This document shows positions 2-12,693 of a stretch of DNA of 64,000 nucleotides, piece after piece. A model generated the notes under the pieces. That model saw only the letters and a program-made list of their open reading frames with translations, did no database searches and had not been told where the DNA came from. The stretch is from Haloplanus sp. XH21 (GTDB taxonomy: Archaea > Halobacteriota > Halobacteria > Halobacteriales > Haloferacaceae). Both the position numbers and the translations under genes were made by a program. Within the stretch, counting starts at the first letter, position 1, and each line of letters opens with the position of its first letter. Where the stretch lies: NCBI RefSeq assembly GCF_023276355.1, contig NZ_JALLPL010000001.1, positions 1,612,001 to 1,676,000 of the forward strand, given 5' to 3'.

Positions 2-2215
2 CTCCTGCGGATGCTCCGGGCACAGCACCGCCTCACCGACCACGACGACTTGCAGGTGTCGGGGACGGCGAGTGTCGCGCGGTCGGTCGCTCGCACGCTC
101 GACCCCGAGGCGGACTCCCTCGCCGACGAGATTCGGGCGGTCGAACGGTCGACGCCCGGGGAAATCGACCGCGCGGTCCGGGAGACGGTCGCTGGCAACC
201 CCCGGCTACGGTCCCTGCTCAGCGACGACTACAACGCCCGGTCGGCGTCGGCGTCGGCCACTATCGGCACGGTCTCGCACCGCTTGCCAGGTGGCGGGAG
301 CGAAGGCGCCGGAACCAGCGGCACCAGCCCGCTCACGTCGATCCAGCTCCAGGCCGCATACGTCGTCTCTTCGGTCGGCGGCGACATCACCGTCTTCGGG
401 AGCGGCATCATCTCCGAGGAACTCGGCAACGTCATCAACGACTCGCTCGCGCTGGTGATCCCGGCCGCCATCGCGCTGATCCTGTTTTTCCTGATCGTCG
501 CCTACCGCGACCCGGTCGACCTCCTGCTCGGCCTGATCGCTCTCGCGATGACGATGCTCTGGACCTTCGGCTTCATGGGACTCGCCGGCATCGCGTTCTC
601 GCAGCTGCTCATCGCGATTCCGCCGCTGCTGCTCGCCGTCGGCATCGACTTCGGCATCCACGCGATCAACCGCTACCGCGAGGAACACGTCGACGACGTG
701 AGCGTTCGCGAGGCGATGCGCATCACCACGGATCAGCTCGTCGTCGCCTTCTTCATCGTCACGGGAACGACAGTGCTCGGCTTCGCGGCCAACCTGAGCA
801 GCGGGCTGAGTTCGATTCGCGAACTCGGCATCGTCGCGGCGGTCGGGATCGTCTTCACCTTCTTCGTGTTCGGTGTCTTCCTGCCGGCGACAAAAGTCGT
901 CGCCGACACGTGGCGCGAACGCCTCGGTATCCCGGAGTTCGGCTCCGCGGCGCTCGGCGACGAGGAGTCCCTGCTCGGCCGGGTCCTCCCCGTGGGCGTC
1001 CACGTCGCCCGCGCGGCGCCGAAGCTCTTTCTCGTCGTCGTCCTCGTCTCGACGGCGGTCATGGGCCAGTACGGCGCCGGCGTCGACAGCCGGTTCACCC
1101 AGGACGACTTCCTCCCGCCCGAGGAGCCGCCCGCGTACCTGGACTACGTGCCCGAACCGTTCCGTCCCGGCGACTACACCGTCACCCAGACGACGAACTT
1201 CCTGGAGCGAAACTTCCAGACCGGGGAGCAGGACACCACGACGGTGTACGTCGAGGGGCCGTTACATCAGGACTACGCGCTGGAGGCGCTGTGGCGGGCG
1301 GGCGACGACCCACCGTCGAGTTTCGTCGCTGACGACGGCCACGCCCGGGAAACGAGCATCGTGACCGTCATTCGGGACTACGCCGATCGCGACCCCGAAT
1401 TCGCGGCCCTGGTCGCGCGCAACGACCGGAACGACAACGGGATTCCGGACGATAATCTCCGGACCGTCTACGCCGCGCTCCTGGATTCGCCCGCACGCGG
1501 GCAGGCGCTGAACTACATCACCGACGACTACTCCAGCGCGCGCATCCAGTATTCGGTCGAGGCCGACGCGAGCCAGGAGGCCGTCACCGACGACACCCGA
1601 CAGGTGGCCGACCGGGTGCGGTTCGAGGCGACGGCGACCGGGAACGTCATCGTCCTGAAGGCCGTCTCGGACGTGATCGGCGAGTCGGCGTTCCGGAGCC
1701 TCGTGGTCGCGCTCGTCGCCGCGGCCGCGTTTCTGGTGCTGGTGTATGGGGCGCTCGAAGGGCGCCCCTCCCTCGGCCTGGTGAACGTCCTGCCGATCCT
1801 CGTCACCGTCGCCGCCCTCGCCTCGACGATGCGCTATCTCGACATCCCGTTCAACGTGCTCACGGGGACGAGCCTCTCTATCGCCATCGGGCTGGGAATC
1901 GACTACTCGGCGCACCTCCTCCATCGCTTCGTCGAGGAGTACGACGCCGCGACCGATGTCGACGATGCGTTGCTCGCCACCGTCCGTGGTACCGGCGGCG
2001 CGCTCACCGGAAGCATGCTGACCACCGTCTCGGGGCTCGGCGTCCTCTGGCTCGCCATCTCGCCCATCCTCGGGCAGTTCGGGCTGTTGATCGCGCTGAG
2101 CGTGCTCTACTCGTATCTGGCCTCGATCCTCGTGTTGCCGACGACGCTCGTCCTGTGGGATCGTCACGTCTCCAGCGGCTCCGGGCGAGCGCTGGACCTG
2201 CCCGCGGCCGACTGA
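2..2215 (+). CDS. RND superfamily exporter, MMPL-type (5' truncated by window edge)
   Basis: Membrane transporter of the RND/MMPL type, probably exporting lipids or other hydrophobic compounds; the substrate cannot be read from sequence. The frame is open to the first bases, so the true start and probably the first membrane helix lie outside the window. Two repeated halves are visible. Each has a block of hydrophobic helices (about residues 145-310 and 575-730 of the visible protein) carrying the family's acidic intramembrane motif (GIDFGIHA, GIDYSAHL), and a large extracytoplasmic loop lies between them. The protein ends in a short cytoplasmic tail and is followed by a GC-rich hairpin. The superfamily assignment is firm; the physiological role is unknown. 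Confidence 0.88.
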   Translation, partial: LLRMLRAQHRLTDHDDLQVSGTASVARSVARTLDPEADSLADEIRAVERSTPGEIDRAVRETVAGNPRLRSLLSDDYNARSASASATIGTVSHRLPGGGSEGAGTSGTSPLTSIQLQAAYVVSSVGGDITVFGSGIISEELGNVINDSLALVIPAAIALILFFLIVAYRDPVDLLLGLIALAMTMLWTFGFMGLAGIAFSQLLIAIPPLLLAVGIDFGIHAINRYREEHVDDVSVREAMRITTDQLVVAFFIVTGTTVLGFAANLSSGLSSIRELGIVAAVGIVFTFFVFGVFLPATKVVADTWRERLGIPEFGSAALGDEESLLGRVLPVGVHVARAAPKLFLVVVLVSTAVMGQYGAGVDSRFTQDDFLPPEEPPAYLDYVPEPFRPGDYTVTQTTNFLERNFQTGEQDTTTVYVEGPLHQDYALEALWRAGDDPPSSFVADDGHARETSIVTVIRDYADRDPEFAALVARNDRNDNGIPDDNLRTVYAALLDSPARGQALNYITDDYSSARIQYSVEADASQEAVTDDTRQVADRVRFEATATGNVIVLKAVSDVIGESAFRSLVVALVAAAAFLVLVYGALEGRPSLGLVNVLPILVTVAALASTMRYLDIPFNVLTGTSLSIAIGLGIDYSAHLLHRFVEEYDAATDVDDALLATVRGTGGALTGSMLTTVSGLGVLWLAISPILGQFGLLIALSVLYSYLASILVLPTTLVLWDRHVSSGSGRALDLPAAD

Positions 2216-2230
2216 TGATCAGTCCGTTAC

Positions 2231-2252
2231 CGCACCCGTCTGAGCGGGTGCG
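2231..2252. terminator. GC-rich hairpin after the MMPL gene
   Basis: Perfect 8-bp inverted repeat (CGCACCCG / CGGGTGCG) with a 6-nt loop, 15 nt past the MMPL stop codon. It could end that transcript. There is no T-run, and it also lies about 20 nt before the TATA-like box of the next gene, so it could instead be regulatory. Confidence 0.4.
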
Positions 2253-2303
2253 ATTCGACACCCGTTGGGAACCTATTTCAGTCCGTCCCCGCAACTACGG
2301 GCA

Positions 2304-3035
2304 ATGACGGAGCTGACACGAACCGGCATCGAGGGGCTGGATTCGATCCTCGGCGGTGGCATCGTCAACAACGCGACCGTACTGATCAGTGGGAATCCGG
2401 GAACTGGCAAGAGTATTCTGGGGCTCCAGTACATCTACAACGGCGTCACGCGCTTCGACGAGAAGGGCATCTATCTCTCCTTCGAGGAAAACGCCGAAGA
2501 CATCGCGCAGGCGGCCGACTCCATCGGCTTCGAGAACTGGCGGGAACTGGTCGACGACGGACAGATCCTGGTCTACGACAAGCAGGAACTCCTCCGTCAC
2601 AACGACTTCAACGCGACGCTGGACCAACTGCTGGCGGCCTTCGAGGAGACGGAGTACGAACGGCTCGTGCTCGACTCGCTGACGATGTTCGAACTGTTTT
2701 TCGAGGACGAGAAGGAGAAGCGGACGTACCTGCTCAAGTTCTCCGACATCCTGAAGGCGAACGGGTTGACATCGCTGCTCATCGCCGAGCAGTCCGCGGT
2801 GTTCCCGGAGCAAGATATCGGTCTTGAGAATTTCCTCACCGACGGTAACATCTACCTGATACAGACGCCCACGGAGTCGGGCGTCAATCGGTATCTCTGG
2901 GTGGCCAAGATGCGAAAGCAACAGATCGAGACGGACATCTTCCCGATGAATATCGACGAGGGTGGCATCACCGTCCACGAACGCGCGGCCGGGTTCTCGA
3001 TGATGGGCCAGCAGAACGACCCGTTCCCCGAGTGA
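2304..3035 (+). CDS. KaiC/RadA-like RecA-superfamily ATPase (single domain)
   Basis: Single-domain KaiC-like ATPase of 243 aa. The opening TGIEGLDSILGGG motif and Walker A (GNPGTGKS, residues 30-37) are typical, and a Walker B-like strand (RLVLDSLT) lies near residue 127. Such stand-alone KaiC-like proteins in haloarchaea are thought to act in signalling; they are not shown to be clock proteins. I chose the ATG at 2304 because a TATA-like ACCTATTTCA (2271-2280) sits about 27 nt upstream, which fits a leaderless mRNA, and because the family starts just before this motif. A start 39 nt earlier is possible. The gene ends base-to-base against the convergent winged-helix gene. Confidence 0.85.
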   Translation: MTELTRTGIEGLDSILGGGIVNNATVLISGNPGTGKSILGLQYIYNGVTRFDEKGIYLSFEENAEDIAQAADSIGFENWRELVDDGQILVYDKQELLRHNDFNATLDQLLAAFEETEYERLVLDSLTMFELFFEDEKEKRTYLLKFSDILKANGLTSLLIAEQSAVFPEQDIGLENFLTDGNIYLIQTPTESGVNRYLWVAKMRKQQIETDIFPMNIDEGGITVHERAAGFSMMGQQNDPFPE

Positions 3036-3371
3036 TCACTGCGAAAGCGTCCGCCACGCCTCGTCGAGACGGCTGGTGACTTCCTGGCGTTCCTCCACGG
3101 TGACGGATATCTCGTCGTCCGTGAAATCCACGACCACTTCCTCGACGTTTCGGCGATAGACGTTGACCCGGCGTCGTTCGTCCGAGAGGACGCGGTCGTG
3201 GTGTTCGAGCAACTCCGCGTCCGTCAGTTCCTCGATCCGCCGGTAGCAGGTAGCGATCGGAATGTCGAGTTCGTCGCTGAGTTCCTGGGCCGACCGCGGT
3301 TCGTGCGCGAAACTCAGTATCTCGGGGTTGTACTCGTTGCCCAGAACCCGAAGCAGTTCAGTTCCGTCCAT
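3036..3371 (-). CDS. Winged helix-turn-helix regulator (ArsR-like)
   Basis: DNA-binding protein of 111 aa with an ArsR-like winged helix over residues 1-75 (ELLRVLGNEYNPEILSF, then a recognition helix around IPIATCYRRIEEL) and an acidic C-terminal tail. It has no obvious metal-binding cysteine pair. Such short regulators commonly pair with RecA/KaiC-like or signalling genes in haloarchaea. Its stop codon directly abuts that of the KaiC-like gene (TGA|TCA), so the two mRNAs must overlap at their 3' ends unless transcription stops exactly there. Target genes cannot be inferred. Confidence 0.8.
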   Translation of the reverse strand: MDGTELLRVLGNEYNPEILSFAHEPRSAQELSDELDIPIATCYRRIEELTDAELLEHHDRVLSDERRRVNVYRRNVEEVVVDFTDDEISVTVEERQEVTSRLDEAWRTLSQ

Positions 3372-3638
3372 TCGTTATCATTTTAGATACGCCCATCCAC
3401 AATAAATCGTACTGTCGGCCGCCCACCACATCTCGGTCGCGGCAAGGGGCTGCTGATCGACGGATGGGAGCGGTGGCGAGACTCGCGGCCGACGATATCC
3501 GCGCTGATATGCGGCCAATAGGTATATACCGGTCGAGTAATTTTGGTCAATCGAACGTCGGCGGACGAACCCCGCCACTCGCCTACAGCGGCAGTTCGTT
3601 CGGCGGGCGGCCGCACGCTCCGTTCCGATCTCACGACC

Positions 3639-4238
3639 ATGACCACTACGCTCTCGGACGCGACCGTCCTCATCGTCGACGACGAGCAGTCGCTCGCCGA
3701 TCTCTACGCCTACTGGATCGACGAAGTCGCCGAGGCTCGCACCGCCTACAACGGTGAAGACGCCTTGGAGATGCTGGACGAGGACATCGACGTGCTGTTG
3801 CTCGACCGGCGCATGCCCGGGCTTTCGGGCGACGAAGTCGTCGAAGCCGTCGAGGAGCGCGGTCTGGATGTCCGGATCGTGATGGTGACCGCCGTCGACC
3901 CCGGGTTCGACATCGTCGAGATGGCGATCGACGACTACCTCGTCAAACCCGTCGATCAGCCCGAACTCGTCCGGACGGTCGAGCGGATGGTCGTCCGTAA
4001 CTCCTACGACGACAACCTCCAGCACAAGTTCCAGCTCGTCGAGAAGAAGGTGACGCTCGAAGCGGCCAAGACGCCCCACGAACTCGAAGAGAGCGAGGAG
4101 TATCAGGACCTCCTCCGCCAGCTCGACGCCATCGAACAGGAGATCGATACCACCGTCGAGGAGTTCGACGACACCGATTTCTCCGTCGCGTTCCGGGAGC
4201 TATCCAACGACAAGTCGGCCGATTCGAGCGGGAGCTAG
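3639..4238 (+). CDS. HalX-domain response regulator
   Basis: Two-component receiver protein of 199 aa. The receiver domain covers residues 8-120, with acidic pocket D14/D15, probable phospho-acceptor D56 in LLLDRRMP, and the conserved Lys in YLVKPVD. A C-terminal HalX domain (about residues 125-190, rich in charged helix) follows. No DNA-binding domain is present, as usual for HalX proteins, which are thought to act with bacterio-opsin activator-like regulators. I chose the start at 3639 because the preceding in-frame codons do not resemble protein. A TATA-like GGTATATACC lies at 3521-3530, which would give a leader of about 85 nt. A second HalX gene lies at the right edge of the window. Confidence 0.9.
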   Translation: MTTTLSDATVLIVDDEQSLADLYAYWIDEVAEARTAYNGEDALEMLDEDIDVLLLDRRMPGLSGDEVVEAVEERGLDVRIVMVTAVDPGFDIVEMAIDDYLVKPVDQPELVRTVERMVVRNSYDDNLQHKFQLVEKKVTLEAAKTPHELEESEEYQDLLRQLDAIEQEIDTTVEEFDDTDFSVAFRELSNDKSADSSGS

Positions 4239-4663
4239 CGAACGACCGTCACCGGAACGGGAGACCGACGGACGACCGTTTCGGCCACGCTGCCGAGCAG
4301 GACGCGCGTGACTCCTTCTCGCCCGTGGCTCCCGATGATGATCCCGTCGATGTCGTTGTCCTCCGCCCACTCGACGATAGCTCGGGACGGCATGCCGACG
4401 ACTGTCTCCGTCTCGACCGACACGCCCCGTTCCTCCGCTCGCTTTCGTGCCTCTTCGAGGACCTGCTCCGTTCGCTCCTGAGACTTCTGTCTCAGGCGGT
4501 CGAACGTACTCGGCGCCGCCTCGATGGAGCCGAATCCGACGTCCGTCGGATCGACGACGGAGATGATCGTGAGTTCGGCGTCCGGATATTCGTCGAGGAC
4601 AAACTCGAGCGCCGCGTCTGCGGGGTCCGATCCGTCGACGGGAACGAGCAGTCGTTTCGTCAT
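4235..4663 (-). CDS. Universal stress protein, UspA family
   Basis: Single-domain UspA protein of 142 aa. The N-terminal strand RLLVPVDGSDPAD and the C-terminal ATP-loop signature GSHGREGVTRVLLGS-x5-VRRSPVPV are both clear, so it probably belongs to the ATP-binding branch. The start at 4663 is preferred over one 24 nt upstream because the family begins at this point and a weak TATA-like CTTACGG lies about 27 nt before it. The stop overlaps that of the convergent HalX gene by 4 bp (CTAG read as TAG on both strands). Confidence 0.9.
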   Translation of the reverse strand: MTKRLLVPVDGSDPADAALEFVLDEYPDAELTIISVVDPTDVGFGSIEAAPSTFDRLRQKSQERTEQVLEEARKRAEERGVSVETETVVGMPSRAIVEWAEDNDIDGIIIGSHGREGVTRVLLGSVAETVVRRSPVPVTVVR

Positions 4664-4758
4664 GCCACAGGGTGGGTACGACGACACCGTAAGCGTAGGG
4701 GTCGATTCTCCCCGGCCGGGATAGTCAGGTTTTCGTAGGATGGCGCGTAACCGCCGGT

Positions 4759-5388
4759 ATGGGTAGTCATCGTTCCGTCTCCCGGCGCGGGTTGCTGACC
4801 GCCGTCGCGGGCACGACGGCCACGGCGGCCGCCGCCGGAACCGTCGCGGCCCAGCCGTCGTTCGACGGATGGATGAGCGACGTGGGGAACTACAGCGAGG
4901 TGACCGACGCGACCGGCCAGGACGAGGTGACGGTGATGGTCGGCGCCGAGGGCAACGGCGGGGCGTTCGCGTTCGACCCGCCGGCCGTCCAGGTCGATCC
5001 CGGAACGACCGTCGTCTGGGAGTGGACCGGCGAGGGCGGTCAGCACAACGTCGTCGACGACGGCGGCGACTTCGAGAGCGACCTCACGGGCGAAGCGGGC
5101 TTCACCTTCGAGCAGACTTTCGAAGAAGAGGGCGTCACCAAATACTACTGCTCACCCCACCAGGCCATGGGCATGAAAGGCGTCGTCGTCGTCGGGGCGA
5201 TCCCCGACTCCGGCGGTGGCGGTGGTGGCGGAGGCGGAGGCGGAGGCGGCGTCAGCGGTCCCGCCGTTCCCGACAGCGCGAAGTCCCTCGTCGTCGCGCT
5301 GACGGGGTCGCTCGTCGCAGTCCTCGCGCTCGCGTACTTCTTCATCCGCTACGGTGGCGACTACGGCGAAGAGTTCGAGAGCACCTGA
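4759..5388 (+). CDS. Halocyanin-type blue copper protein, Tat-exported, membrane-anchored
   Basis: Extracellular type 1 copper protein of 209 aa, expected to carry electrons at the outer face of the membrane. A Tat signal (SRRGLL at residues 8-13, then an Ala-rich stretch) leads into a cupredoxin domain at about 55-147. The copper ligands are readable: H96, C131, H134 and M139, with the spacing C-x2-H-x4-M typical of plastocyanin and halocyanin. A run of 13 glycines follows (about residues 153-165), then a C-terminal transmembrane helix (about 180-196), so the protein is anchored at the C-terminus rather than as a lipoprotein. The Gly run uses mixed GGN codons. Confidence 0.93.
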   Translation: MGSHRSVSRRGLLTAVAGTTATAAAAGTVAAQPSFDGWMSDVGNYSEVTDATGQDEVTVMVGAEGNGGAFAFDPPAVQVDPGTTVVWEWTGEGGQHNVVDDGGDFESDLTGEAGFTFEQTFEEEGVTKYYCSPHQAMGMKGVVVVGAIPDSGGGGGGGGGGGGGVSGPAVPDSAKSLVVALTGSLVAVLALAYFFIRYGGDYGEEFEST

Positions 5389-5426
5389 GCCGCTCGGCCT
5401 CGGCCGAGTCGCGGCCCCGCAGTCGT

Positions 5427-6344
5427 TCACTCACCCCGTTCGATCAGTTCTGTGGCCGTCTCTACGGCGTCGACCGCACTCGTCCCGAGCACATAGGTGA
5501 TCGGTTCGATACCGAAATCGCCCTCGTGGTAGATGACCTGCGGGACGCCGCCGTACGTCTCGAACGCCTCGGTGAGACGCTCCCCCCGGTCGTCGTACGC
5601 GGCGTCGAACGCGACGGCGTCGATGTCGTCCGGGATGGCAGCGAGTACCGCGTCGCTCGTGGCCAAGTTGATCGCTCCGCGGACCGACGGATCGGCGCTC
5701 GTGGCGGTGAGCAGTGTCGTCGCCACGTGGTGTGACGCCCCGAACTCCGGATTCGACGGGACGTTGACGCCGCCGCGCATGGCGTGGATGCGCCCCGGGA
5801 CCGCGGCGACATCCGTCTCGTCGCTCGCGTCGGGCAGCGCCATCGCCACGTTCGTCCCGACGTTCGGAACGTGAACTGCCACTTCCGGTGTGTTCGAAAA
5901 CTGCCGGACTGCGCGACGGACGTTCGCGAGTACTTCGCGCTCCGTCTGTACCGACGGGTCGCGTCCGCGCACACAGAGATCACAGCCCAGGCCCTCCAGC
6001 GCGGGCATCTCCTCCTCGTGAACCGCGCAGATCGGCCCCCGATCCTCGAACGCGCGGACGAGTTCCAGCAGTTCCGCCAGGGCCTCGTAGTCGTCCATCG
6101 TCCCGTCGTCGAACCCGTCGGCGATCCGTTCGATCGTCGCCTGCATCCGGGGATGCTCTGCGAACCGCTCCTCGCCACGCCGCTCCCCGGACAGGTACTG
6201 GCTCACGGCCGCCTGCGAGATGCCGAGACGAGTGGCGATCTCTCGCTGAGAGAACTCACGGTCCGCCAGTTCAGCGGCTAACATCGACCGGACCGTCGGC
6301 AGGAACCGCTCGACGACGATCTCGCTCGGTAACTGCAGCGTCAC
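5427..6344 (-). CDS. HTH plus ThiN-domain regulator (ThiR-like)
   Basis: Protein of 305 aa with an XRE-type helix-turn-helix at residues 31-52 (REIATRLGISQAAVSQYLSG), a middle segment with three cysteines (C106, C121, C124), and a C-terminal ThiN domain (about 135-300). ThiN binds thiamine phosphate. In archaea the HTH-ThiN architecture without a ThiD domain is described as the thiamine-pathway repressor ThiR, so I infer a regulator, not a synthase. The cysteines could bind a metal. No thiamine gene is adjacent; the divergent neighbour is a cupin. A rev-strand TATA-like GTATGAG lies about 25 nt upstream of the start. Confidence 0.82.
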   Translation of the reverse strand: MTLQLPSEIVVERFLPTVRSMLAAELADREFSQREIATRLGISQAAVSQYLSGERRGEERFAEHPRMQATIERIADGFDDGTMDDYEALAELLELVRAFEDRGPICAVHEEEMPALEGLGCDLCVRGRDPSVQTEREVLANVRRAVRQFSNTPEVAVHVPNVGTNVAMALPDASDETDVAAVPGRIHAMRGGVNVPSNPEFGASHHVATTLLTATSADPSVRGAINLATSDAVLAAIPDDIDAVAFDAAYDDRGERLTEAFETYGGVPQVIYHEGDFGIEPITYVLGTSAVDAVETATELIERGE

Positions 6345-6464
6345 GCTGTCACCGTCCGCTCACGTCTCATACGTCGCCTCTCTCGCCGCTGGGATTTTAT
6401 ACTATTCCCGTCGCCTCGGCCGCGCTTCGAACTCCTTTAGATGGACCGCTGCCTCGCGACGAGC

Positions 6465-6809
6465 ATGCAGCCCGTCTCCTTCGACGACGCCGAGACGTAC
6501 GAACCCGACGAGAACTGGCGCCGGGTGTCGATGGCCGGTAGCGACCGGTTCAGCTTCGAGTGGTTCGAGAAACCACCCGGTCACTCCTCGCCGATGCACG
6601 ACCACGAGAACGAACAGGTCTGTCTGGTGCTCCAGGGCGAACTCACGGTGTACACCGAGGACGACCACGTGACCCTGGAGCGGTACGACTCCGTCCATCT
6701 CGAGGCCTGGGAGTCACATCGCGTCGAGAACACGGGCGACGAACGCGCCCTCGGCCTCGATGTTTTCGCCCCCGGGCGCGACTTCGACTTCTGGACGGAT
6801 CGGGACTGA
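6465..6809 (+). CDS. Cupin-domain protein
   Basis: Small single-domain cupin of 114 aa. Motif 1 is clear (GHSSPMHDHENEQVCLVLQGE, shortened here to key residues H-D-H and E), giving a likely His/His/Glu metal site; motif 2 (ESHRVENTG) gives the fourth histidine. The substrate is unknown; similar proteins may be sugar isomerases or dioxygenase-like sensors. An in-frame ATG at 6441 exists, but CCTTTAGA (6431-6438) sits about 28 nt before 6465 and the family starts at MQPVSF, so I prefer 6465. It is divergent from the ThiN regulator with 120 bp between them. Confidence 0.8.
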   Translation: MQPVSFDDAETYEPDENWRRVSMAGSDRFSFEWFEKPPGHSSPMHDHENEQVCLVLQGELTVYTEDDHVTLERYDSVHLEAWESHRVENTGDERALGLDVFAPGRDFDFWTDRD

Positions 6810-6909
6810 AGGGCCTTCTAGCGGCCGATATCGACAGGACCCACGCAGACCTATCATCGCAGATTCTGTATAGCGGCATGAAGTTTATCCACTCGCCCAA
6901 ACCACCGGT

Positions 6910-7926
6910 TCACGTCAATCGGTAGATGTTTTCCTCGTACGTGTGACGGACGCGATCACCCCAGTCGTGGGTGTAGGTGTCGATGATGTCGCTGGCCACG
7001 TCGCCACGGAGGTATTTGACGATGCCACGGTCGCCGGTACGGTCCCGGAGGTGGGTCGTGAAGAAGTGTCGGAAGTAGTGGGGCGTGACGTTCTCCTCGG
7101 CCCCACCGCCGTCGCGGTGCCATCCACGCTCGCGCGCGTGGCTCTCGACGGTGTGGTGGACGACGTGGGGTGTGACGCGTTTTCCCCAGTTGTCCGCCGT
7201 GCTGAGAAAGAGTGGGTCGGCGTCGGAGCGCGGATCGGGCCTGATCGCTAGCCACCGGACGAGCGCTGTCCGGAGCTCCTCGTCGACCGGGATTACCGTC
7301 GCTCGCTTGCGTTTGTTCGCCGCCGTCCGGCGTTCGCCCTCGCTCACGTCGCCGACGGCGTGGTCCGCCGCGACGAAGAGCGCGTCGCCCCGGCCGTCGA
7401 GCTGGGGGCGGATCGGGATGTCGAGCGTCTCCCGCGTTATCGGTAGGGAGAGGTCTCGCAGGTCGAGATTACAGAGTTCACCCACCCGAATGCCGGTTTT
7501 GAGCATCGTCACCAGCAGCGCACGGTCGAGAGGGTGATCGATTCCGGCGAGGAACTGCCGCATCTCGGGGACCGTGATCTCCCGGCGAGTCGGATCGGTG
7601 TTGATCCGTTCGTCCATCTCCTCGGCGACCAGGGTCATCGGATTGGATTCGAACGTGCCGACCTGGACCATGTAGGCGTAGAACCGGTGGAGATAGGCGG
7701 CGTAGGTGGCGACGGTGCTTTCGGCGACCGAGCCCCGAAGGCGGTGAATCCAGGCCATACAGTCCCGGTGTTCGGCCGCGCCGGGCGTGTCGACCCCGCG
7801 CTCGTCGGCGAGAAACGTCTCGAAGTCCCGCAAGACCCGTTCGTAGGCCGACCGGGTGCGGTCGGTCTTGCCGTGGTAGGTCATGTCTTGTAGGAAGTAA
7901 CCCACAGGGTCGTCAACGTCGCTCAC
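6910..7926 (-). CDS. XerC/D-like tyrosine recombinase
   Basis: Site-specific recombinase of 338 aa. An N-terminal SAM-like core-binding domain (about 8-105) precedes the catalytic domain. Catalytic residues can be placed: R147 in TGIRVGEL, a basic cluster near 204-208, H283 and R286 in HYFRH, and nucleophile Y318 in IIDTYTH. It is full-length with all key residues, so probably active. It overlaps the upstream ribbon-helix-helix gene by 4 bp (ATGA), so the two are co-transcribed. No flanking att repeat or phage genes are visible, which suggests a housekeeping or locus-maintenance recombinase rather than a prophage integrase; this is inference. Confidence 0.88.
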   Translation of the reverse strand: MSDVDDPVGYFLQDMTYHGKTDRTRSAYERVLRDFETFLADERGVDTPGAAEHRDCMAWIHRLRGSVAESTVATYAAYLHRFYAYMVQVGTFESNPMTLVAEEMDERINTDPTRREITVPEMRQFLAGIDHPLDRALLVTMLKTGIRVGELCNLDLRDLSLPITRETLDIPIRPQLDGRGDALFVAADHAVGDVSEGERRTAANKRKRATVIPVDEELRTALVRWLAIRPDPRSDADPLFLSTADNWGKRVTPHVVHHTVESHARERGWHRDGGGAEENVTPHYFRHFFTTHLRDRTGDRGIVKYLRGDVASDIIDTYTHDWGDRVRHTYEENIYRLT

Positions 7927-8306
7927 GGTTCCTCCCGAAGCGTGTAGCCGCCGTGGCGGCCGCTGTACTGGACGACGTTTGCCTCCTGGAGCGTCTCCAG
8001 GGTCTCTTCCAGGCGATCCTCGATGTCGTCGGAGAGGGCTGAAACGAGGTCGTCCCAGGAACGGTGGTCATCCGGGTCGAGGGCGTCTTTCACCCGGGGT
8101 TCGAGCCCCGAAGAGGCCGCTTCAGCCCCGTCTTTGGTGCCGGGTGTCCGCTCCGGAATCTCGAAATCTCCGCGTCCGGCCTGGACCATCGTCCGGACGA
8201 ACTCGCTTTGACTCATCCCGAGGCGGTCGGCGTGTTCGCGCCAGCGTTCTTTCTGGTACTTCGGCACGTACGTCTTCACCGCGACGCTGTCGGCGTCGTC
8301 TGCCAT
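7923..8306 (-). CDS. Ribbon-helix-helix protein, DUF5805-like
   Basis: Protein of 127 aa with an N-terminal RHH-like fold (residues 8-43: beta strand VKTYVP, then helices ending ...GMSQSEFVRTMVQAG) and an acidic helical C-terminal half. It is probably DNA-binding. It sits immediately upstream of, and overlaps by 4 bp, the tyrosine recombinase, a pairing I recall from many haloarchaeal genomes; it may regulate the recombinase or act as its accessory factor. I preferred the ATG at 8306 over one 30 nt earlier because the RHH family starts near it. AT-rich TATA-like sequence lies 45-50 nt upstream. Confidence 0.75.
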   Translation of the reverse strand: MADDADSVAVKTYVPKYQKERWREHADRLGMSQSEFVRTMVQAGRGDFEIPERTPGTKDGAEAASSGLEPRVKDALDPDDHRSWDDLVSALSDDIEDRLEETLETLQEANVVQYSGRHGGYTLREEP

Positions 8307-8407
8307 ATGCGCCCCCTCGATTGCCGGGAACTTCAAAGTAGTCCCACTGAGGGAAATAAGGGTCTTTATTCGTAGATCTAGTACTGCTTTCTCCCCCGTG
8401 AAATACT

Positions 8408-8468
8408 ATTATTTGTGAGAGAGGGGCTGATATTCTACTCATAGTGGCATCCTCTTCACAAATATAAT
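8408..8468. repeat. AT-rich imperfect inverted repeat
   Basis: Left arm ATTATTTGTGAGAGAGG (8408-8424) and right arm CCTCTTCACAAATATAAT (8451-8468) pair over about 16 bp around a 26-nt loop. It lies 21 nt past the SRAP stop codon (rev strand) and about 100 bp upstream of the RHH-recombinase operon, so it could be a 3'-end hairpin for SRAP, an operator, or a recombination site. Confidence 0.5.
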
Positions 8469-8489
8469 TTACACCCCGGTTCGACTCGA

Positions 8490-9182
8490 TCACGCGTCCG
8501 CGCGTTCGATCAGCGAGGGGTCGTCGACGGTCGGATCGTTCACTCGCGGCGAGACGGGGGAGGCCGTCAGATCGATGTCCGGCGGGTCGAGAAGTTCGAC
8601 TGCCTCGTCGAGCGACCCGTGGAGCCACGTCGACTCCTCGCTCGGATCGAGGATGACGGCCATCCGGTGATGCAGGTCAGAGACGAGGCCGTTCGGTTCC
8701 GTCGTCACGATGGCGAAGGAATCGATCGGATCGGCGTCGTCGGACGCAGGCCCGCCGGTGAACTCTCCCAGCCCGGTCTGACGGGTTTCGGGGTGCCACC
8801 GCGACCAGATCCCCGCCATCGCGAATGGGCGGTCGTCCGCGAACGCGACCCGGTACGGTCGCGTGCCGCTGTCGCGGTCGACCCACTCGTAGAAACCGTC
8901 CGCGGGGACGAGACACCGGCGGTGTTCGACCGACTCCGCGAAACTCGGCTTCTCCGTCAAGGTTTCTGCCCGCGCGTTGATGAGGTCCGTCGAGGCGCTG
9001 TCGGCCCATTCGGGGATGAGTCCCCACTGTTTGTGGGCCATTCGGTCGGGGTCGTCGCCGGTGACGACCGGCAGCGACTGCCCTGGTGCGCAGTTGTACT
9101 GCGGATCGAACGTCGGGGTCCGCGTCCCGAAGCGTTCGGCTAGTTCCTCGGCCGGCGTGAATAGGGTGTACCGCCCGCACAT
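8490..9182 (-). CDS. yedK: SRAP family (YedK/HMCES) abasic-site shielding protein
   Basis: DNA-repair protein of 230 aa that covalently crosslinks to abasic sites in single-stranded DNA through its N-terminal cysteine. The family hallmark is intact: MCGRYTL at the N-terminus (Cys2 exposed after Met removal), INARAET near residue 69, GFYEW near 100, and the catalytic-His motif HHRMAVIL near 160. Length matches the family. A rev-strand TATA-like TTTATC around 9208-9214 is about 27 nt before the start, consistent with a leaderless transcript. Confidence 0.92.
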   Translation of the reverse strand: MCGRYTLFTPAEELAERFGTRTPTFDPQYNCAPGQSLPVVTGDDPDRMAHKQWGLIPEWADSASTDLINARAETLTEKPSFAESVEHRRCLVPADGFYEWVDRDSGTRPYRVAFADDRPFAMAGIWSRWHPETRQTGLGEFTGGPASDDADPIDSFAIVTTEPNGLVSDLHHRMAVILDPSEESTWLHGSLDEAVELLDPPDIDLTASPVSPRVNDPTVDDPSLIERADA

Positions 9183-9400
9183 ACCGTCGCTTTGGCCGGT
9201 GTCGGGATAAACGGGTCGGCTGAGTCGAGTACGCCATCGCCGTCTCGCGCGGTTCGTGAGTGACGGGGTCTATAAAGTATATGGCGCTATATCGAACCGT
9301 TCGGCGTTTGCTTACAGGTCACCGCTGACGTGATCGGTGCAGTCCCGCGACGTATCCAAGACATCAAAATCGGTCAGTGCACTCGTGTTCAGCACGAGAG

Positions 9401-9694
9401 TCATCCCTTGACGGTGTACCCGTTTTCTTTGAGTAGTTCACGGACACGCTCCTCGTGATCGCCCTGCAGTTCGATGTGGTCTCCTTTGACCGTGCCACCG
9501 GTTCCGAGTGCGGATTTCAGCTCCGAAGCGAGTGATTCGAGGTCGGTGTCGCCTTCGAATCCCTCGACAATGACCATTTTCTTGCCATACCGACGCTCTT
9601 CGGTCCGGGCAGTCAACTGCTGCGTCGCACGGTCCAGATCTTCGAGCGGGTCCTCAGGGACATCGACATCCTCGAATGACTTGTTGTCTGTCAT
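9401..9694 (-). CDS. Translation initiation factor SUI1/eIF1 family
   Basis: SUI1-fold protein of 97 aa, with the conserved core RRYGKKMVIVEGF (residues 35-47) and ALGTGGTV (63-70). The family controls start-codon selection in archaea. An acidic N-terminal extension is present. It lies 16 bp downstream of the HxlR regulator on the same strand and is probably co-transcribed with it. This whole stretch (about 9.3-12.2 kb) uses more A/T-ending codons than its surroundings, so this may be an acquired second SUI1 paralogue rather than the housekeeping copy; that is inference. Confidence 0.88.
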   Translation of the reverse strand: MTDNKSFEDVDVPEDPLEDLDRATQQLTARTEERRYGKKMVIVEGFEGDTDLESLASELKSALGTGGTVKGDHIELQGDHEERVRELLKENGYTVKG

Positions 9695-9710
9695 GTGGTG
9701 ACCCCCGAAT

Positions 9711-10052
9711 TCAGAGCCACTCGTCGCCCCACTCGTCTAACACGTCGAAGACGGGACAGAGCGCGCCACCTTTCTCAGTCAGGCTGTAATAGCTCGCGAC
9801 TGGCGATTCGAACTCCTTTCGGTTCTCGATGAGCTCTTCGTCCTCCAAGTCGTCAAGCACGCGCGAGAGGGTGTACGAACTCGCCCCCGTCGATCGCTTG
9901 AGTTCGTTGAACCGTTTTTCGCCGTCTCGCAGGTCGTTGAGGACGATGAGCTTCCACTTCGAACCGATCTCCTCGATCGATCCCACTACATTACAAACAT
10001 CTGCATTCCGTTGCTCGATGTCGGATTCGGACGTCGGTGGTTGTGTCGCCAT
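9711..10052 (-). CDS. HxlR-family winged-helix regulator
   Basis: Regulator of 113 aa with the HxlR/DUF24 pattern: a single N-terminal cysteine (C20) 13 residues before the conserved GSKW, a winged helix through about residue 95, and a second cysteine (C99) in GALCPVFDVLDEW. In Bacillus the HxlR proteins YodB and CatR use the corresponding N-terminal Cys to sense quinones and diamide, and control a DoxX-plus-dioxygenase operon. Here the divergent operon has just that composition, so a thiol-based electrophile sensor is a reasonable inference. Repeated TACTTGGT motifs flank the shared promoter. Confidence 0.87.
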   Translation of the reverse strand: MATQPPTSESDIEQRNADVCNVVGSIEEIGSKWKLIVLNDLRDGEKRFNELKRSTGASSYTLSRVLDDLEDEELIENRKEFESPVASYYSLTEKGGALCPVFDVLDEWGDEWL

Positions 10053-10110
10053 TACTTGGTTAGATTATTGTTGCCTGAAGTATATATAGATTTGGTAGCC
10101 TACTTGGTAA
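10052..10110. promoter_or_regulatory. Divergent HxlR/SDR promoter with TACTTGGT repeats
   Basis: A strong TATA box (GTATATATAG, about 10080-10089) lies 29 nt before the SDR start, fitting a leaderless mRNA. Two copies of TACTTGGT (10053-10060 and 10101-10108) bracket it. The second adjoins an inverted repeat GTAG-C-CTAC (10095-10103). The first copy abuts the HxlR start codon and the second lies just upstream of the SDR start. These are candidate HxlR-binding sites. Confidence 0.55.
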
Positions 10111-10114
10111 TGTA

Positions 10115-10816
10115 ATGGAACTACAAAACGCGACGGTGCTTGTGACCGGTGCGACCGGCAACATAGGCCCATACGTGACGGACCAGCTCGTTGACCAGGG
10201 CGCCGGTGTGATCGGCACCTACGTTACCGAGACCGAGAGAGATGCTGTCGAAAGCCGCGCTGAGTACGCCGATGCGGTGTCATACCACCGAGTCGATCTT
10301 ACCGACCAAGCGGCGGTCGAAGCGTTCGCTGAGGCCGTCACCGAGGAACACGACTCGGTCGACCACATCGTCGGCCTCGCTGGCGGGTTCTCGATGGGCG
10401 GCATCAACGAAACCGATGGCGACGCATTTGAATCCGCTCTCAGTCGCCACGCAACGACGGCATTCCTGACCGTCAAGGCGTTCGCGGACCAGCTCAATGA
10501 ACACAGTAGTATCGTGCTGTTCAGCTCCGACCGGGCGATCGATCCGGTGTCGGGCACGCTGGCCTACAACGTGGGGAAGGGTGCGGTCCGGACGTTGACC
10601 GAGTCGCTCGATGTCGAGCTCGATGCTCGCGTCAACGCGATCGCCCCGTTCCTCATCGACGTGCCGGGGAACCGCGAAGCGATGCCGGACGCCGACTTCT
10701 CCGAGTGGACGGCCCCTACGTCGGTCGTCGATGAAGTGGTCCACCTGCTCTCGAATGAGGGTGTAACGGGCCAGATCGTCCAGATGACTGGCGGTCAGCC
10801 GGAGCTGGTGGAATAA
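10115..10816 (+). CDS. Short-chain dehydrogenase/reductase (SDR)
   Basis: NAD(P)-dependent oxidoreductase of 233 aa. The Rossmann motif TGATGNIG is at residues 11-18, an NAG-like strand appears as GLAGGF near 90, and the catalytic serine region VLFSSDRA and YNVGK (Tyr/Lys) follow. The fold is intact, although the protein is slightly short. It is the first gene of an operon with DoxX (1-bp overlap, TAATG) and a two-domain dioxygenase, so a role in carbonyl or quinone detoxification is plausible. The substrate cannot be told. Confidence 0.85.
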   Translation: MELQNATVLVTGATGNIGPYVTDQLVDQGAGVIGTYVTETERDAVESRAEYADAVSYHRVDLTDQAAVEAFAEAVTEEHDSVDHIVGLAGGFSMGGINETDGDAFESALSRHATTAFLTVKAFADQLNEHSSIVLFSSDRAIDPVSGTLAYNVGKGAVRTLTESLDVELDARVNAIAPFLIDVPGNREAMPDADFSEWTAPTSVVDEVVHLLSNEGVTGQIVQMTGGQPELVE

Positions 10817-11307
10817 TGGCCCAGACCGTATCACGCCAACTGTCATCCGAGACGACTACGCGGTGGAGTCTGCCCCTCGTTCGACTCGCCCTCGGGATCC
10901 CGATGCTTATCGCAGGCGTCGGCAAAGTCTTCGGAGTCGGACCGAAACCGATGGGTATCTCGGGCTTCGCAGGGTTCTTGGCGAGCCTCGGCGTTCCACT
11001 CCCCACGATTGCTGCGTGGGGGGTCGGTCTCGTCGAACTTGTCGGCGGTATCTTGTTGCTAGTCGGCTTGGCCGTTCGACTCGCAAGCGCGGTGATCGCC
11101 ATCGACATGCTCGTCGCGACAGTCCTGTACCATCTTCCCAATGGGTATCCGGTCACGAGTAACGGTATCGAACTGACGCTCACGCTAACCGTGATCGCAG
11201 TAGCGCTCGTCCTGAGTGGCCCTGGAGCGTTCTCGATCGAAGGGGTACTGTTCGACCAAGAGGACCGCTCCGCTGACTCGTCTCAGTCGAGAGGCAGGGA
11301 CGAATAA
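10816..11307 (+). CDS. DoxX family membrane protein (CatD/MhqP-like)
   Basis: Integral membrane protein of 163 aa with four predicted helices (about 15-40, 50-85, 90-112 and 118-140). The DoxX signature is visible in PLVRLALGIPMLIAGVGK and the following Pro/Gly-rich helices. It overlaps the SDR stop by one base. In Bacillus, DoxX proteins CatD and MhqP are co-transcribed with ring-cleaving VOC dioxygenases and serve in quinone resistance; the order DoxX then VOC is the same here. Confidence 0.85.
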   Translation: MAQTVSRQLSSETTTRWSLPLVRLALGIPMLIAGVGKVFGVGPKPMGISGFAGFLASLGVPLPTIAAWGVGLVELVGGILLLVGLAVRLASAVIAIDMLVATVLYHLPNGYPVTSNGIELTLTLTVIAVALVLSGPGAFSIEGVLFDQEDRSADSSQSRGRDE

Positions 11308-11337
11308 GTAGCGCTCGCGTTTATTTTCATAGTATCA

Positions 11338-12177
11338 ATGACTACAGACGTACTCCCGCAAGGAACACGTATCGGCCGGACAGCGCTTCGCGTCGCCGAC
11401 CTCGATGAGATGAGCGGATTCTACCGGGATGTCGTCGGCCTCAGTGTGCTCCGCCTAGACGACACGACCGCCGTTCTCGGGGTTGACGACACGTCACTGC
11501 TCGTCCTGGAGGGAGCGGAAGATGCCCTGAAGCGTCACCGAGCTGCAACTGGGCTCTACCACAATGCATTCAGAGTGCCCTCACGTGAGGCGCTCGGTGA
11601 CGCGCTCGGTCGGATACGAGAGCACTGGCAGCTCGGTGGTGCGTCTGACCATCTCGTCAGCGAGGCGCTGTATCTCACAGACCCCGAGGGGAATGGCGTT
11701 GAGATCTACCGGGACTTCCCCCGCGACGAGTGGTCCATCGACGACAATGGGAAGATCAGAATCGGCTCCGACCGACTCGATCTCGATAGGATCGAAGCCG
11801 CTGGTGGTGGTGATGCTCGGGCACCGCCGGGCACAGACGTCGGCCATGTCCATCTCGAAGTCTCCTCGATTGACGCATTCAGGGACTTCTACGTAGACAC
11901 CCTCGGGTTCGAGGTGCAAGCAACCTGGCCAGACGCGCACTTCGTGTCTGCCGGAGAGTACCACCATCACATCGGGGCGAACACGTGGCACCATCGAACG
12001 GGGCCAAGCAACGGCCGAGGATTAGCCTGGTTCGAGGTGGTCCTTCCAGAGACACAGGCACTCGACGCGCTTCGAGATCGACTCGTTGGGAGCCAATCTA
12101 CCGTGACCGAAACGGATGAGGGTATCGTAGTCAGGGATGCAGACGAGATCGAGATTCGATTCCGAACCGAGACCTAA
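11338..12177 (+). CDS. Two-domain VOC dioxygenase (CatE/MhqO-like, catechol 2,3-dioxygenase type)
   Basis: Protein of 279 aa made of two glyoxalase/VOC modules (about 10-125 and 160-275). The first has a metal-ligand-like pattern ending YLTDPEGNGVEIYRD; the second begins HVHLEVSSIDAFRDFY and contains HIGANTWHHRTG. This matches thiol-dependent extradiol dioxygenases that open catechol rings. It follows DoxX by 30 bp and is probably part of the same transcript. A glyoxalase-like lyase role cannot be excluded. A hairpin pair 30 bp downstream may end the operon. Confidence 0.85.
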   Translation: MTTDVLPQGTRIGRTALRVADLDEMSGFYRDVVGLSVLRLDDTTAVLGVDDTSLLVLEGAEDALKRHRAATGLYHNAFRVPSREALGDALGRIREHWQLGGASDHLVSEALYLTDPEGNGVEIYRDFPRDEWSIDDNGKIRIGSDRLDLDRIEAAGGGDARAPPGTDVGHVHLEVSSIDAFRDFYVDTLGFEVQATWPDAHFVSAGEYHHHIGANTWHHRTGPSNGRGLAWFEVVLPETQALDALRDRLVGSQSTVTETDEGIVVRDADEIEIRFRTET

Positions 12178-12208
12178 CTCGTCGTTCCACCGTTTCTTCC
12201 TCGTTTGA

Positions 12209-12237
12209 GCCTCCGCGGAGGCAGTTCACGTTGAACT
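12209..12237. terminator. Tandem short palindromes after the dioxygenase operon
   Basis: A perfect 14-bp palindrome GCCTCCGCGGAGGC (12209-12222) is followed at once by AGTTCA-CGT-TGAACT (12223-12237). They lie about 30 bp past the dioxygenase stop and could form consecutive hairpins in its 3' end. The rest of 12178-12399 holds no convincing gene, only a TATA-like GATATAT at 12367-12373. Confidence 0.4.
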
Positions 12238-12399
12238 TCTCACCTCAATCGGTTGTAACCGAGATGCGTAGCGGCGCTGGCTATGAGTGCTCTCGCTCTC
12301 GCTGAGTGTCTGAGTCAGTCAGGGTCGACGCAGAGCGCCGGTTAGCGCGGATGTCCCATCCCAACAGATATATCGCTACGTCCGGTAGGGAAACCACCA

Positions 12400-12480
12400 A
12401 TGGATCACCGGATCACGAACGGAGCGGGTCGTTCCGACGCGAGCGATTTCGCCGGCGACGGTCGAGCGGAGGCACGATAA
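12400..12480 (+). CDS. Possible 26-codon upstream ORF
   Basis: A short ORF (ATG at 12400, TAA at 12478-12480) starts about 30 nt after a TATA-like GATATAT (12367-12373), so it would be read from a leaderless mRNA. Its 3' end contains a GGAGG (12468-12472) positioned as ribosome-binding site for the 49-codon ORF that begins one base after its stop. The peptide has no recognisable motif. It may act only as a translational leader. Confidence 0.35.
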   Translation: MDHRITNGAGRSDASDFAGDGRAEAR

Positions 12481-12481
12481 C

Positions 12482-12631
12482 ATGCCCTGGGGCGTCAACA
12501 CCGAGTACACCGAAGACGAGGCAGCGGACGTCGAAATCGACGAGGACCAAGAGAAAGTCGACCGGAGCGAAGAAGGGTCCGAGACCACGGCCGATTTCGA
12601 TGTCGACGAAGCGATTTCGAACCTGGACTAA
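12482..12631 (+). CDS. Small acidic protein, 49 aa
   Basis: Very acidic small ORF beginning MPWGVNTEY and ending DEAISNLD. It is preceded by a good Shine-Dalgarno sequence (GGAGG, 9-nt spacing), unusual in this mostly leaderless neighbourhood, and by an upstream 26-codon ORF. The composition (Glu/Asp-rich, haloarchaeal) and the SD support a real gene. No function can be named. Confidence 0.6.
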   Translation: MPWGVNTEYTEDEAADVEIDEDQEKVDRSEEGSETTADFDVDEAISNLD

Positions 12632-12693
12632 CGCACCGGCGTCGGTGTGTCCAGGACGCGAGCTTTTTGCCTCCCCACCGCGCACGGACGTTC

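Follow-up and report, generated by a model that had tools for sequence, protein, structure and literature searches.

A mobile HxlR-SDR-DoxX-VOC cassette of haloarchaea, probably a catDE-like detoxification module

We analysed a 64,000-nucleotide stretch of DNA from Haloplanus sp. XH21 (hereafter the window), and found that it carries a compact cassette in which an hxlR gene faces genes for an SDR, a DoxX membrane protein and a two-domain VOC protein. Taken together, the results suggested that this is probably a mobile detoxification cassette, assembled within the haloarchaea and working like catDE of Bacillus. Detailed knowledge of how cells sense quinone and catechol stress comes mainly from Bacillota, and searches of an open-access library yielded no article on an equivalent in archaea. 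The cassette thus lends itself readily to testing if archaea detect and degrade toxic quinones, and it brings together in one small transferable archaeal system a Cys-based HxlR switch, the puzzle of DoxX beside enzymes that cleave aromatic rings, and an SDR that may be a quinone reductase of a new kind.

Layout, recurrence and mobility of the cassette

As shown in Table 1, open reading frames and Pfam domains placed hxlR divergent from the SDR, DoxX and VOC genes, as the first-pass annotation had described. The SUI1 gene that it had noticed downstream of hxlR was present as well, starting 16 bp past the hxlR stop, and doxX overlaps the SDR stop by one base. The lower G+C noted at the outset was also borne out: the G+C content was 56% for HxlR and SUI1, 62% for SDR and 61% for both DoxX and VOC, against 65.6% for the window. 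GC3 of these five genes (0.64-0.77) was among the lowest of the 65 gene calls of the window (mean 0.852, sd 0.054), and the SUI1 gene had the lowest of all. SUI1 adjoins hxlR in the window and in four more cassettes (L035, L039, L049 and L230; L numbers denote the loci compared), and a second SUI1 gene was found elsewhere in the source genome.

Table 1 Features of the cassette and its surroundings, in window coordinates
Feature	Position	Strand	Basis or remark
SUI1/YciH-type gene	9401-9694	-	Pfam SUI1 5e-18; passenger downstream of hxlR, optional
HxlR-family regulator, 113 aa, candidate Cys-based electrophile sensor (C20, C99)	9711-10052	-	Pfam HxlR 2e-20
Putative divergent promoter/operator spacer, 62 bp	10053-10114		between hxlR and SDR starts
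SDR, dihydropteridine-reductase-like C-terminal motif	10115-10816	+	Pfam adh_short 3e-25, adh_short_C2 1e-26
DoxX membrane protein, type A (CatD/MhqP kind)	10816-11307	+	Pfam DoxX 2e-19
Two-domain VOC protein, CatE (catechol 2,3-dioxygenase) family	11338-12177	+	Pfam Glyoxalase 1.5e-17, two stretches
Variable insertion slot with cassette	9221-12655		between Int-DUF5805-SRAP and RNase H/GT2 blocks

Relatives of the VOC protein turned up in 100 of the 148 genomes searched in the family of Haloplanus; most of these relatives (46-65% identity) are lone genes in varied contexts, without such an HxlR, SDR or DoxX alongside. The HxlR-DoxX-VOC order was then sought in haloarchaeal genomes by pooling the VOC search, plasmid records and an SDR search, and the order HxlR-SDR-DoxX-VOC was found at 19 loci including the window, so at least 18 others, in many genera and several families (window, L035, L036, L037, L039, L041, L042, L044, L045, L047, L048, L049, L095, L098, L099, L100, L229, L230 and L231). 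Protein identity in other genera was roughly 66-93%, and because the same order returns there, the four-gene set is not a chance neighbourhood. Incomplete forms were also observed: intact DoxX is absent from L233 and L043, HxlR-SDR-DoxX occurs with no VOC nearby in L232 and L234, and the cassette is in decay in L097, L235 and L236. Cassettes are often plasmid-borne, with carriers that include Natrinema salinisoli, Natrinema versiforme, Haloarcula sp. JP-L23, Haladaptatus sp. YSMS36, Halobaculum roseum, Halobaculum magnesiiphilum and Salinigranum marinum.

The cassette moves horizontally among haloarchaea. The SDR was found in only 16 of 391 genomes of the class, yet these represent 12 genera with 72-92% identity; it was absent from all seven Haloplanus congeners in that search and had no match in viral contigs. 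The VOC and DoxX proteins (tree-aligned part) were identical between Halobaculum roseum (L044) and a member of another family (L231), and the DNA of the two loci was 92% identical across 5.7 kb. The Natrinema salinisoli plasmid has DNA in common with the window at 9686-12182, from HxlR to VOC, at 90% identity, and the DNA that L035 has in common with the window takes in SUI1 and skips DoxX. Homology of the window with five congeners (L265-L269) ends at about 9220 and returns at about 12656; the integrase-DUF5805-SRAP and RNase H-GT2 blocks are kept in the genus, while the cargo between them differs in each of the five. The proposal that the locus was acquired was therefore supported, by the variable slot and the very low GC3 as well as by the lack of the SDR in congeners. 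Neither flanking direct repeats nor a tRNA was found at the cassette edges as an insertion mark. Leftovers of a second cassette in tandem were observed in L036 and L230, where remnants of HxlR, SDR or VOC lie between two cassettes (L036:3368-6834 and L230:2781-6986), which shows tandem insertion with later recombination. A short acidic ORF of about 49 aa was also seen within the variable slot of the window, at 12482-12631.

The VOC, DoxX and SDR proteins

The VOC protein was 38% identical to Bacillus spizizenii CatE over 267 aa (E 1e-59), with no significant similarity to MhqO or YodE and only a match of 6e-4 over 76 aa to MhqA. The CatE reference was the B. spizizenii gene; an earlier query with B. 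subtilis CatE had matched close Bacillus genomes at 90-95%. By these alignments the VOC protein is a CatE-family enzyme and does not belong to the MhqO/MhqA/YodE group, in line with its original placement. In a tree of 81 VOC proteins (56 haloarchaeal and 25 bacterial; a quick search whose deep order is provisional), all haloarchaeal proteins stood apart from the bacterial ones (99), and the cassette VOCs were nested among the haloarchaeal proteins. H75, H105, E122, H170, H172 and H209-H211 were invariant in all 81, a set that includes the candidate metal ligands. By profile, the stretch with H75 and E122 aligned to residues 212-271 of homoprotocatechuate 2,3-dioxygenase, a part with two of that enzyme's metal ligands, and one metal site may be formed by H75, E122 and either H170 or H172. 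A PDB search with the VOC as a single sequence returned no match. The AlphaFold2 model (pLDDT 90) had 1zsw (TM 0.64) and the Bacillus dioxygenase 3oaj (0.59) as top global folds in Foldseek; classical extradiol enzymes superposed poorly as wholes (0.35). In many haloarchaea a CatE-family gene stands by itself, with neither HxlR nor DoxX, so its native role may not be in stress.

A ring-cleavage enzyme together with an SDR is a frequent catabolic pairing, which would suit a module that lets the cell grow on an aromatic compound, the substrate and not stress being what acts on HxlR. The finding that CatE of B. subtilis also acts on siderophore-derived catechols (PMC6212828) would fit such a role too. 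However, the conserved cassette has no meta-cleavage genes (hydrolase, hydratase or aldolase) downstream, and it is a small mobile unit with a single regulator and a DoxX, like stress operons, so that we regard the catabolic explanation as unlikely.

The DoxX slot holds two deeply different kinds of protein, type A, the one in the window, and type B, whose other occurrences are next to haloarchaeal HxlRs. In the DoxX tree, type A joined bacterial DoxX proteins adjacent to catE (94/86). The first-pass annotation had taken the window protein for the CatDE/MhqOP kind, and this held at the level of the group; at finer resolution it proved nearer in pairwise identity to MhqP (35%) than to CatD (27%). 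Comparison of L035 with the window at 10820-11345 showed that doxX alone was fully replaced, the cassettes being otherwise 90-93% identical in DNA. The slot is thus kept while its protein is swapped, suggesting that DoxX matters for the module. We also considered a sulfur or thiol redox module, where DoxX would have the role it has in thiosulfate:quinone oxidoreductase, with sulfur compounds as the substrates of VOC and SDR. A DoxD match was indeed detected, but at 1.4e-4 it was weak and below the cut-off, the cassette has no DoxA-type partner and no sulfur genes, and DoxX groups with CatD/MhqP-type proteins, all of which makes this module very improbable.

In the SDR, S138, Y151 and K155 were invariant. 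Its top single-sequence PDB match was 8b5t, a quinonoid dihydropteridine reductase, with which it has a DxPGNRxAMPxADxSxWT stretch in common (DVPGNREAMPDADFSEWT). In the profile search general SDRs came slightly ahead and 8b5t ranked fifth, so that the SDR had no firm match to any one functional family. A quinone or a ring-cleavage aldehyde are the two favoured candidates for the SDR substrate.

The HxlR regulator and its divergent spacer

The nearest solved relative of the window HxlR was YodB (5hs7). C20 and C99 were invariant in 15 cassette HxlRs, and the position of C99 differs from those of C101 and C108 in YodB. In the HxlR tree, one clade (96/94) united CatR and YodB with most of the HxlRs encoded next to catE in Bacillota, and the haloarchaeal HxlRs formed a separate one (100/99). 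The conserved Cys pointed out in the first-pass annotation was confirmed as C20, whereas descent of the regulator from CatR or YodB was not supported, and orthology to either was dropped. C20 lies at the start of helix 1, and an N-terminal Cys was also visible in most B. spizizenii HxlR paralogues; because such a residue is widespread in the family, C20 alone gives no pointer to CatR or YodB. A defence reading from PADLOC matches of HxlR was also dropped, these reflecting a winged-helix similarity to CARF-type regulators.

In 22 loci, with 21 unique sequences among them, the spacer between hxlR and the SDR gene had a length of exactly 62 bp. Identity between the window and the other loci was 0.66-0.92 for the spacer and 0.53-0.82 for 4-fold sites of the SDR gene; pairwise, the spacer was usually well above these sites, with the distant L098 nearly an exception (0.66 vs 0.62). 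Judged from these comparisons, the spacer is under constraint. It contains a single palindromic TATATATA at 10081-10088, 26 bp from the SDR start and 28 bp from the hxlR start, which is compatible with an element common to two leaderless promoters. A dyad TACYTGGT...ACTAGGTA around the TATA box was matched by 45 of 500 column shuffles, and no operator is claimed. The catD promoter of B. spizizenii has two copies of the box TTAC-N5-GTAA, which we take to be the CatR site, and the box also occurs in L122, L124, L170, L174, L180 and L182; none was found in the haloarchaeal spacers. Two CatR boxes have been reported in the catD promoter (PMC6212828). Because the HxlR is not an orthologue of CatR or YodB and the operator differs, inducer specificity cannot be transferred from Bacillus.

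These data also bear on whether a bacterial catR-catDE module was moved directly into a haloarchaeon. The kinds of genes and the divergent layout are as in two Bacillota loci, Bacillus haynesii L115 and Rossellomorea marisflavi L170. Nevertheless, the position of the HxlR in the haloarchaeal clade, the nesting of the cassette VOCs within haloarchaeal lone VOCs, the absence of the CatR box and the lack of an SDR in the bacterial set leave direct transfer hardly credible. Instead, the same functional set with a regulator from a separate branch suggests convergent assembly, and our best view from the trees is that a Cys-bearing regulator was probably recruited separately from the Bacillus one.

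Proposed function and related systems

In the detoxification mechanism that we favour, HxlR would bind the 62-bp divergent promoter and repress both hxlR and SDR-DoxX-VOC. A quinone, catechol-derived or similar electrophile would modify C20, perhaps followed by a disulphide with C99 of the partner subunit, and HxlR would be released. The SDR may then reduce the quinone with NAD(P)H, or act on a ring-cleavage product, while the CatE-type VOC would use a metal and O2 to cleave the aromatic ring, and DoxX would serve as membrane partner of the dioxygenase. A more ambitious version, possible but not one we would bet on, is a thiol-based quinone-sensing module of independent haloarchaeal origin, joining an archaeal HxlR, a CatE-family dioxygenase, an interchangeable DoxX and the dihydropteridine-reductase-like SDR as a new kind of quinone reductase in a plug-in cassette with one bidirectional promoter and interfamily spread.

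The model system is well described in B. subtilis, where CatR and YodB sense quinones through the equivalent Cys, CatE converts catechol to 2-hydroxymuconic semialdehyde, and quinone reductases belong to the same CatR/YodB regulons (PMC6798810). Mutation of either catD or catE makes cells sensitive to iron limitation, and protection from intracellular catechols requires CatDE (PMC6212828). Like B. subtilis catDE, the cassette has a dioxygenase of the CatE family in which the same His and Glu residues are invariant, a DoxX gene directly upstream of it, and an HxlR/DUF24 regulator with an N-terminal Cys. It differs in that its regulator comes from a separate haloarchaeal clade and is divergently linked, in the lack of TTAC-N5-GTAA, and in its added SDR, its DoxX of two exchangeable types and its mobility among haloarchaea. 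The first-pass annotation of a CatR/CatDE-like set was right about the CatE-family VOC coupled to DoxX, although the added SDR and the two interchangeable DoxX types set the cassette apart as a variant.

Comparable arrangements were found in bacteria. A doxX gene precedes CatE-family genes in the unrelated Paenibacillus, Deinococcus and Agrobacterium, and hxlR lies beside doxX-catE in L115, L170 and Salibacterium L180, divergently in the first two; hxlR-VOC pairs are also present in Bacillota. Unlike the cassette, these three loci have HxlRs that branch with CatR/YodB and no SDR, and CatR-type boxes occur in L170 and L180. The Bacillus mhq operon (MhqO, the DoxX protein MhqP and the esterase MhqD) combines DoxX with a VOC dioxygenase as the cassette does. 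In haloarchaea, sister HxlRs (57-61% identical to that of the window) were found divergent from genes for DoxX, a ring-cleaving dioxygenase of the MhqO type (46-48% identical to Bacillus MhqO) and a carboxylesterase-type hydrolase in two Haladaptatus species (L277, L279) and in L233, and in Natrononativus a 54% identical HxlR is divergent from DoxX and an annotated ring-cleaving dioxygenase. Such loci differ from the cassette in their MhqO-type VOC subfamily and in having an esterase where the cassette has the SDR. In L233 the HxlR-DoxX-MhqO-type dioxygenase-carboxylesterase operon (1205-6121) is convergent with and adjoins an HxlR-SDR-VOC cassette, and the two units would form a small quinone-detoxification island. 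These sister operons, once beside a cassette, are the strongest contextual support for the quinone/catechol reading.

They also weigh on aldehyde detoxification, in which a glyoxalase-like VOC and an aldehyde-reducing SDR would be controlled by an HxlR sensing formaldehyde or methylglyoxal. Foldseek also matched the VOC to maize glyoxalase I and GLOD4, carbonyl reduction is frequent among SDRs, and HxlR of B. subtilis is a formaldehyde sensor through Cys11. That sensor, however, needs a crosslinking Lys at Cys+2 (PMC7835342), whereas the window HxlR reads C20-N21-V22, with Val22 in all 15 aligned cassette HxlRs. In addition, CatE is the closest characterised VOC, the cassette is without formaldehyde-fixation genes, and the HxlR-DoxX-MhqO operons are linked to it. 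Aldehyde detoxification is accordingly rather improbable, and quinone or catechol-derived electrophiles remain the preferred targets.

Other HxlR-DoxX pairs were also observed. In L278, a locus of the source genome (123500-133500), a second hxlR gene is divergent from genes for a type-B DoxX and a further DoxX-domain protein (4349-9885), and it adjoins genes that seem to belong to the heme pathway. Haladaptatus and Halomicrococcus (L276, L280) likewise have HxlRs close to hemH/hemG.
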